Origin: Candidatus Jacksonbacteria bacterium RIFOXYB2_FULL_44_15 | Lineage (GTDB): Bacteria; Patescibacteriota; Patescibacteriia; UBA9629 | Assembly (NCBI GenBank): GCA_001818235.1 | Contig: MHJY01000041.1 | Location: 1-32,075, forward strand | Length of the DNA stretch: 32,075 nucleotides | Direction: 5' to 3' | In this document: positions 7,203 to 9,309 of the stretch, piece after piece | Position numbering within the stretch: position 1 is the first letter of the stretch | Layout: every line of letters starts with the position of its first letter | Program-made: the position numbers and the translations under genes | The notes under the pieces: model-generated | Databases searched by the model: none | What the model saw: only the letters and a program-made list of their open reading frames with translations | Told to the model about the DNA's origin: nothing

Positions 7203-8591
7203 CTATACTGCGCCGTCTTTTTTGAACAGTACCGCCGGCAGGGTTTTTAACAAGATCGTTAAATCCAGTTTTAAACTCCAATTTTCGATATAGTATAAAT
7301 CAAGCCGCACTTCTTCGTCAAACGGCAAATTACTCCGTCCGGAAATCTGCGCCAGCCCGGTAACCCCGGGCTTTATATTCAACAATTTACGGTCGCTATT
7401 TTTATACTGATTAACTTCTGCTGGTTCATGCGGTCTGGGACCGACTAGACTCATCTCTCCTTTTAGGGCATTAATAAAGTTTGGCAATTCGTCTAAACTA
7501 AACCGCCTTAAAAATTTACCGACGCGCGTAATGCGCGGATCATTCTTCATTTTAAAAAGCGGCCCCTGCCTTTCGCTTAAACTCAATAACTGTGGTTTTA
7601 TTTGGTCGGCGTTTTGAACCATCGAACGAAATTTGTATATTTTAAATAACTTGCTTTGCTCGCCGACGCGCGTCAATTTTACAAAAATTGATCCGGGCGA
7701 GGTAATTTTTATTATCAGGCCGATAATTACCCCGGGAATGAATAAAATGAGTATAGCCAGCGCACTAAAAAGAATATCAATCGCGCGTTTTTTTACGCGC
7801 CCCCAGCCTTCTAAGGGCGTGCGTTTGATCTCGATAAGCGGGAAACCGGCAATGGCGTCCATTTCGATGTTATGCAAATTTGCGGATAACATATCAGCCG
7901 CATAACTAAAGTCCAGATGGCGTGTTTGGCAAAATTCCAGATAATCATTTACTTGCTCGCGAGACAAATTTAAATCAGTTAAAATCACCGACTCAACCGT
8001 TATGTCGCGCACTTTGTCTGCTAAAGCATCTAAGGTGTGCACTTGGCCAACAATCATAAAACCCCACTCCGGACGTTTGTTAATTTCCGAAATAAAATGT
8101 TGGGTGTTCCTATCTTGTCCCACGACAATCACCGGCTTAGCGCCGATTTTATATTTTAAGAGATGGCGACGAATTGCCCGAACTAGGCCGCGAGCAAAAA
8201 TTATCAAAAGTATGCTTAAAATCCAACTGGCTAAAATTAAAAAGCGCGAAGCAAACAGCGCTTCTTGCCTAAAAAATAAAAAGATGACTAAAGCGGAAAT
8301 GCAAGCAGTAGTGGCTAAAAAAACCTTGATTGCTTGGTTGAAAAATTTTTTGATTTCCCGCGGCTGATATAACCCGGCAAAATTAAAAAAGGCTAGTCCG
8401 ATCAAGCCGATAATTGCCAAAATTGCCAGATAATTACCTAAAGGAATCTCGTAAAAAATATTACTGACGACATTCAAATTACGGACAAGTTCGGTTTTCC
8501 GCAATTCGTAGGCAAGAATTCCAGCCAAAAAAAACATTAGATAATCTAAAGGCAATAAAATCGCGGTATATGCAAAATCAGAGCGACGCAT
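7203..8591 (-). CDS. Exopolysaccharide polyprenyl-phosphate sugar phosphotransferase
   Basis: N-terminal TM segments; KFRSM, DELPNFINALKGEMSLVGPRP, KPGVTGLAQISGRS. Confidence 0.93.
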   Translation of the reverse strand: MRRSDFAYTAILLPLDYLMFFLAGILAYELRKTELVRNLNVVSNIFYEIPLGNYLAILAIIGLIGLAFFNFAGLYQPREIKKFFNQAIKVFLATTACISALVIFLFFRQEALFASRFLILASWILSILLIIFARGLVRAIRRHLLKYKIGAKPVIVVGQDRNTQHFISEINKRPEWGFMIVGQVHTLDALADKVRDITVESVILTDLNLSREQVNDYLEFCQTRHLDFSYAADMLSANLHNIEMDAIAGFPLIEIKRTPLEGWGRVKKRAIDILFSALAILILFIPGVIIGLIIKITSPGSIFVKLTRVGEQSKLFKIYKFRSMVQNADQIKPQLLSLSERQGPLFKMKNDPRITRVGKFLRRFSLDELPNFINALKGEMSLVGPRPHEPAEVNQYKNSDRKLLNIKPGVTGLAQISGRSNLPFDEEVRLDLYYIENWSLKLDLTILLKTLPAVLFKKDGAV

Positions 8592-8801
8592 AAAAAAATC
8601 AAAAAAAATGCTTTAAAAACCTCATAAGCCGGATTCTGTTTCTAAGTAATCATCTACCTTGATCCATAATCACTTATGGATTCTAGCGCAGGGATCCCCG
8701 ATTGCTCAGGGCACCAATCCTGCTGTCTCCACCCAGGGTTTACCCCCTCTTTTAGTTACCTAAAAGAGCTGTGGGCTCTTACCCCACTCTTTTCACCCTT
8801 A

Positions 8802-8901
8802 CCCCGAACCACTCGCTGCGCTCGGGTTCGGGGCAAGCCCCTCTCGCGTTAAAGTTAAAAGGGCTTGCCCTGTACCCGAACCATAGTGAGTGGTTCAGGG
8901 C
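8802..8901. repeat. Palindromic repeat copy 1, forming the P12 arm of rnpB
   Basis: ccccgaaccactcgctgcgctcgggttcggggcaagcccctct...taaaagggcttgccctgtacccgaaccatagtgagtggttc, homologous to copy 2. Confidence 0.88.
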
Positions 8902-9105
8902 GGTATTGTCTCTGTGGCACTTTCCCTATCCCGCCCCATTTCTAACACAGTTCGTAAATGATCAAAATTTAGAGCCGTAAGGCGGCTTCGCCTTAAGGAC
9001 GATGATTAAATATGTCTGTGCTAGAAATAGGGCGGGACGGCAGGCGTTACCTGCTAGGAATTGTCACCCTGCCCAGTATGGGCAGAGAAGGAGTCCGGAC
9101 TTTCC

Positions 9106-9230
9106 TCCCCGAACCACTCGCTGCGCTCGGGTACGGGGCAGGCCCCTCTTTCGCTATAAAACAAAGAGTCTTAATCTCGCGAATACTAAAAGGGCTTGCC
9201 TTGTACCCGAACATAGTGAGTGGTGCGAGG
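9106..9230. repeat. Palindromic repeat copy 2, forming the P3 arm of rnpB
   Basis: ccccgaaccactcgctgcgctcgggtacggggcaggcccctct...taaaagggcttgccttgtacccgaacatagtgagtggt. Confidence 0.88.
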
Positions 9231-9258
9231 CGATTACTCGGGTTTTCAAAGCATATAA

Positions 9259-9309
9259 ATGCTAGCATAAAATAATGACATTGACAAGATTATAAATAAG
9301 TGGCAAAAT
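9259..9309. promoter_or_regulatory. Divergent overlapping promoters for rnpB (-) and rsmI (+)
   Basis: Plus: TTGACA 9281-9286, 17 bp, CAAAAT 9304-9309. Minus: TTGTCA 9287-9282, 17 bp, TGC-TAGCAT (extended -10) 9264-9259. Confidence 0.6.

Follow-up and report, generated by a model that had tools for sequence, protein, structure and literature searches.

The rnpB gene and its surroundings

The window analysed here, a stretch of 32,075 nucleotides from Candidatus Jacksonbacteria bacterium RIFOXYB2_FULL_44_15 (contig MHJY01000041.1), carries on its minus strand a class A RNase P RNA gene (rnpB) of about 645 nt. The host is placed in the CPR through its one named relative in the same family, Candidatus Jacksonbacteria RIFCSPLOWO2_02_FULL_44_20, whose rnpB agrees with the G001 locus over the stretch compared; we take the class to be the Paceibacteria. 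In the cmscan search the gene scores 146.1 bits with RF00010, against a gathering threshold of 100, and the alignment covers all of the model positions with the conserved core present. The gene is bordered by the two strands of P1 (9241-9253 and 8609-8622), beyond which a T run follows; its coordinates and those of all other features are collected in Table 1. The host genome (1.25 Mb in 54 contigs, 92% complete) yielded no further rnpB, and the one extra match to RF00010, 62 nt long and scoring 18 bits, is read here as noise. Immediately downstream of rnpB lies a gene assigned by Pfam to the bacterial sugar transferases (7203-8591, minus strand). The translated start of a similar gene follows rnpB in another genome (G030, locus L015), which suggests that the order of the two genes may be conserved between the window and G030.

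Table 1. Features of rnpB in the window, and copies of the palindromic unit on other contigs of the host genome (C numbers).
Feature	Position	Strand	Evidence or context
-35-like box TTGTCA, 17 nt ahead of the -10-like box	9282..9287	-	direct reading; consensus match only
-10-like box TAGCAT	9259..9264	-	direct reading; consensus match only
rnpB, class A RNase P RNA	8608..9253	-	RF00010 146.1 bits, model 1-367; sole full-length match in genome
P3 arm, two palindromic units as an inverted doublet	9107..9230	-	arm comparison, genome search, fold
P3 arm 5' unit, inverted, diverged, ...GTACCCGAACATAGTGAGTGGT...	9199..9230	+	weak independent unit-model match, E=0.038
P3 arm 3' unit, CCCCGTACCCGAGCGCAGCGAGTGGTTCGGGG	9107..9138	-	pattern search and unit model
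P12 arm, inverted doublet of the unit of P3, orientation as in P3	8802..8901	-	arm comparison, genome search, fold
P12 arm 5' unit, inverted, diverged	8868..8900	+	weak independent unit-model match, E=0.025
P12 doublet inner part, CAAGCCC / loop / GAGAGGGGCTTG	8834..8867	-	present in P3 arm too
P12 arm 3' unit, CCCCGAACCCGAGCGCAGCGAGTGGTTCGGGG; 1 mismatch to P3 unit	8802..8833	-	pattern search and unit model
T run past P1 3' strand, probable transcription end	8601..8608	-	direct sequence reading
Unit, singlet	contig C20, 882		splits partial tRNA-Val copy
Unit, singlet	contig C10, 68879		in RluB-type gene
Unit, singlet	contig C12, 14201
Unit, more diverged copy (L100)	contig C2, 21977

The P3 and P12 arms

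P3 measures 121 nt against a median of 23 (n=44) and P12 97 nt against a median of 26 (n=49), which places both among the longest measured in a sample that leans to long rnpBs. The two arms are direct repeats, homologous over their whole length and with the same order and orientation of blocks, of which 50 nt are shared at 90% identity, 26 nt at 96% and 21 nt at 86%, all in register. With the P12 arm as the query against the whole host genome, the P3 arm is matched at E=2.9e-16, and comparison of rnpB with itself gives E=8.7e-19; none of 355 dinucleotide shuffles of 71 rnpBs of the class gives E<=1e-3. Folded alone, each arm is computed to form one hairpin of about -71 kcal/mol.

An earlier note, made from the letters of the sequence, had recognised an rnpB with a readable core whose P3 and P12 arms, built from homologous sequence, each fold as one long hairpin, and on these points it is borne out. 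One correction concerns the length of the RNA, to which a further long hairpin contributes besides the two arms; it lies in the P9/P10 region (about 8922-9034, minus strand) and has a 19-bp perfect stem with inner sequence CCTTAAGGCGAAGCCGCCTTACGG. This hairpin has no relation to the P3/P12 element and is far longer than in Candidatus Jacksonbacteria RIFCSPLOWO2_02_FULL_44_20 (G001), a genome of the host's family. The same note treated the repeat as a single element of about 100 bp; the homology stands but the indivisibility does not, as each arm consists of two units of about 32 nt in an inverted pair, separated by the joiner GGGCAAGCCC / loop / GGGCTTGCCC and together making a doublet of about 100 nt, and the unit also occurs singly.

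The palindromic unit and its copies in the host genome

The basic unit is an imperfect palindrome of about 32-36 bp, CCCYGNACCCGAGCGNAGCGAGTGGTNCNGGG, with a GC-GNA-GC tip; in the host genome its sequence reads CCCCG(T/A)ACCCGAGCGCAGCGAGTGGTTCGGGG. The element exists singly, on C20, C10 and C12 of the host, and in inverted doublets, each of about 100 nt and folding into one long hairpin, in the rnpB arms and at loci L121, L133 and L145. Among 29 distinct copies of the unit, six of the eight base pairs have changed on both sides and 94.8% of cells pair, while none of 500 shuffles equals any of the five measures used; the palindrome has been conserved through paired changes. On the 5' side there is a weak GCYTG-like foot (G at -5 in 26 of 34 copies, GC at -9/-8), and the 3' side is without one.

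A model of the unit built from five host copies, two of them in rnpB, retrieves these five as strong matches together with a weak sixth on C2. A search with an rnpB-derived 24-mer alone, allowing up to three mismatches, finds two copies outside rnpB and none with the reversed control. On C20 the unit interrupts a partial copy of a neighbouring tRNA-Val gene, and since the joined flanks match the intact tRNA-Val at 21 of 21 positions, the insert is exactly 36 bp and is without target duplication. On C10 the unit forms an in-frame insert of 14 residues in an RluB-type pseudouridine synthase (rluB), and this insert is absent from two genomes of the order (G002 and G003). The diverged copy on C2 is nested within another palindrome, TCATCCCGAGC...CGAGGGATCC.

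The proposal that rnpB, an essential ribozyme, has retained a dispersed palindromic element is therefore supported by four other host sites at the level of the unit, but the form of about 100 bp is confined to rnpB: neither similarity search nor a two-sequence covariance model found a doublet outside rnpB in the host genome, and the covariance model found none in seven other genomes of the class. Of the findings that the note had named as able to overturn it, none fully came about: the two arms are related, the unit recurs outside rnpB and a second rnpB did not turn up. Two Y1_Tnp (HUH) genes are present in the host genome, on contigs C45 and C23. All matches to the unit model are on other contigs, and a link to the Y1 transposase by adjacency was rejected.

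Relatives and empty sites

In G001 both P3 and P12 are short. A genome of another family, assembled as a single contig of 1.035 Mb (G157), has this doublet as the P3 arm of its own rnpB, but turned round (79% identity over 99 nt to the doublet of the window, on the opposite strand, E=1e-16), and the GGGCAAGCCCTTTTA side of the inner part of the P12 doublet recurs there. Two congeners of G157 (G140 and G278) have short P3 arms. Empty sites thus exist for the tRNA-Val, rluB and G157 P3 insertions, and because of them the element can be said to behave as a non-autonomous palindromic mobile element. Judged by eye, the P3 arm of a further genome (G248) resembles it in the inner part and differs in the outer units. 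The P19 arm of the G157 rnpB (L141) also contains a palindrome, with CTCACTTCGTTCGC...GCGAAGCGAG, that appears to be a related hairpin.

These sites bear on the view that the arms owe their length to selection, long P3 and P12 helices being functional (for protein docking or stability) and their likeness being convergence on GC-rich hairpins. The arms do pair well around an intact core, and extended helices are described for CPR RNase P RNA (PMC8172020). Convergence would nevertheless have to produce a likeness that extends to unpaired and loop-side sequence and that shuffled sequences never reach; the same sequence is found beside tRNA genes and inside a protein gene, and the short P3 arms of the G157 congeners and the empty sites of the outside copies also speak against it. 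We consider growth of this kind very improbable.

Distribution in the class and association with tRNA genes

A search of 381 genomes of the class with a 27-base pattern, allowing up to three mismatches, found the unit in 19 of them, and the reversed-pattern control found it in none. The exact unit pattern was absent in viral contigs and the doublet was absent in plasmids, on which grounds carriage by phages or plasmids was rejected.

There is a bias of the unit towards tRNA genes and tRNA fragments. A tRNA gene lies within 150 nt of 11 of 32 copies, or of 10 of 28 when copies outside the host genome are counted; for the latter, p is about 1e-10 against an assumed genome-wide chance of 2% and about 0.014 against an assumed intergenic chance of 17%, both rates being estimates rather than measured backgrounds. 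At three loci (L119, L130 and L140) the unit directly adjoins an intact tRNA gene at its 5' or 3' end, and at some of the 3' ends among them the CCATG of the unit overlaps the encoded CCA. Three tRNA fragments contain the unit, in the D-arm on C20 of the host and at L126 and in the T-arm at L125; at L125 and L126, as on C20, the unit is within 3' or 5' fragments of a tRNA that adjoin an intact tRNA gene.

Such a distribution raises the possibility that the element is aimed at structure, integrating specifically into the arms and ends of tRNA genes and the arms of RNase P RNA genes, for example by means of an HUH transposase recognising lagging-strand hairpins. The tRNA proximity, the abutting copies, the inserts in tRNA arms, the presence of inserts in rnpB in two families and the Y1_Tnp genes of the host are all consistent with it. 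Survivorship in tolerant sites would look similar, however, and the complementarity of the flanks does not exceed that of permutations, so that we regard specific integration as possible but rather doubtful. The outer flanks of 31 copies are no more self-complementary than expected, 106 of 400 permutations being as good; the suggestion of the earlier note that RNA hairpin tips are the target of the element does not hold as a general rule, and insertion at palindrome centres was likewise rejected as one. Single nested cases do occur, namely the C2 copy of the host, L128 and L135.

Repeated arms in other RNase P RNAs

Among 71 rnpBs of the class, a sample biased to long ones, eight contain an internal direct repeat at E<=1e-3. 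In one of these genomes (G022, locus L040) an A/T-rich palindromic element of about 120 nt, AAACTCTAAAT...TTTAGGGTTTAG, occurs three times, as the P3, the P12 and the P19 arm; the copies are 74-93% identical, P12 and P19 being the closest pair at 93%, and shorter matches to this element occur at several further places in the genome. Pairs of like arms are also found in G036 (L025), where no copy exists elsewhere in a 98%-complete genome of three contigs, in G026 (L018), where the alike arms are P12 and P19, and in G030; these pairs are 73-92% identical, with a different repeat in each. From the like arms of G022, G036 and G026 it follows that peripheral helices of RNase P RNA in this class repeatedly consist of repeated palindromes.

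Origin of the two arms

Very probably, a small palindromic mobile element of the non-autonomous kind, tolerated by rnpB as a closed hairpin, accounts for both the P3 and the P12 arm, each arm being one copy and the second copy having arisen by insertion or by intragenic copying. A doublet would have entered one variable arm of rnpB in the host lineage, and a second doublet would then have arisen in the other arm. In the RNA, each would fold into one closed hairpin that stacks on a helix already present and merely lengthens it; for this reason the catalytic core could still fold and the insert could be tolerated. An intact core is indicated by the covariance-model alignment. The insert is probably neutral for rnpB and probably kept in the mature RNA. 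It may have been mobilised by a transposase of the single-strand (HUH/Y1) type that works on the hairpin, and the host Y1_Tnp genes would suit a hairpin substrate and insertion without target duplication; we infer this role only, since the unit does not flank these genes.

Several findings weigh against the mobile-element reading: the confinement of the doublet to rnpB in the host genome, the low copy number (about six), the absence of the unit beside either Y1_Tnp gene, the draft state of the assembly (92% complete, 54 contigs), and the closeness of the units of P3 and P12, which are 1 base apart and 3-7 bases from the copies outside rnpB. This closeness fits copying too. On a competing account there was no second transposition, and one arm was copied to the other within rnpB by gene conversion or template switching, aided by the CGCC...GGGG common to the feet of both helices; the source arm could have been an element acquired long ago or simply a long helix. 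Besides the confined doublet and the fact that the P3 and P12 units resemble each other more closely than they resemble any copy outside rnpB, the like-arm pairs of G036, G026 and G022 are in keeping with it. Outside copies of the unit with empty sites and the inverted doublet in the rnpB of G157 are left unexplained by copying, which covers the second copy and not the first; it is a rival only as to how the second copy arose, and is compatible with a mobile element as the first. We give it slightly less than an even chance. The slight divergence of the arms and the absence of the doublet elsewhere speak for intragenic copying of the second doublet, and the independent insertion in G157 shows that insertion into P3 does happen.

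Comparison with known elements

REP sequences and REPINs, associated with RAYT transposases, are imperfect palindromes of 20-40 bp that occur both singly and in inverted doublets, which make long hairpins. The present element resembles them in being an imperfect palindrome in this size range that paired changes have preserved (6 of 8 pairs, 0 of 500 shuffles), in occurring in both arrangements, in its weak, one-sided 5' foot and in the presence of Y1_Tnp genes in the genome. It differs in that the foot is GCYTG-like and not GTAG or GGAG, in having about six copies and not hundreds, in not being strictly extragenic, and in that no unit flanks a RAYT (Y1) transposase. It is like a MITE in being non-autonomous and dispersed, with empty sites, and unlike one in the lack of a target-site duplication at the 36-bp tRNA-Val insert, a comparison that covers one site only. 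At well under even confidence, we suggest that REPIN-like elements of Paceibacteria preferentially enter structured-RNA genes, in the arms of RNase P RNA and the arms and ends of tRNAs, and in this way repeatedly build peripheral helices of RNase P RNA, then spreading from arm to arm.

Two RNA genes, those for tmRNA and M1 (RNase P) RNA, are reported to contain Rickettsia palindromic elements (RPEs), palindromes of about 100-150 bp that also lie in-frame in protein genes (Ogata 2002, reviewed in PMC2229807), so that the principle of palindromic insertion is not new. Compared by description, the element shares with RPEs the long palindrome that folds as one hairpin and the in-frame insert in a protein gene (14 residues in RluB, absent in G002 and G003); it is distinguished by its phylum, by two copies in one RNase P RNA, by a unit of about 32 nt that also occurs singly and by the tRNA association. 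Heterocyst-forming cyanobacteria are reported to have STRR repeats inside rnpB (Vioque 1997, cited in PMC2858038), and these too are, from that citation, short repeats dispersed in the genome and within an RNase P RNA gene; going by the title of that report, they are tandem repeats, in contrast to the palindromic element in two arms described here. The RNase P RNAs of CPR bacteria are known to have diverged and to carry large helix extensions (Lui et al. 2021, PMC8172020), and the passages of that paper on these extensions do not tie them to repeats or mobile elements. A search of the open literature found no publication on repeats in CPR RNase P RNA.

The insertion of palindromic elements in RNase P RNA is hereby extended from Rickettsia to Paceibacteria, and tRNA genes are pointed to as a second home of the element. 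On the mobile-element reading, mobile DNA can be taken up by a catalytic RNA in its hairpin arms, and captured mobile hairpins would be a concrete source of the large peripheral helices that RNase P RNA has in particular lineages, added as stacked helices that leave the core untouched. Because independent insertions can be traced, with empty and filled P3 arms in one genus, the growth of new domains in a ribozyme becomes testable. RNase P RNAs expanded in this manner can escape annotation tools that score RNase P RNA.
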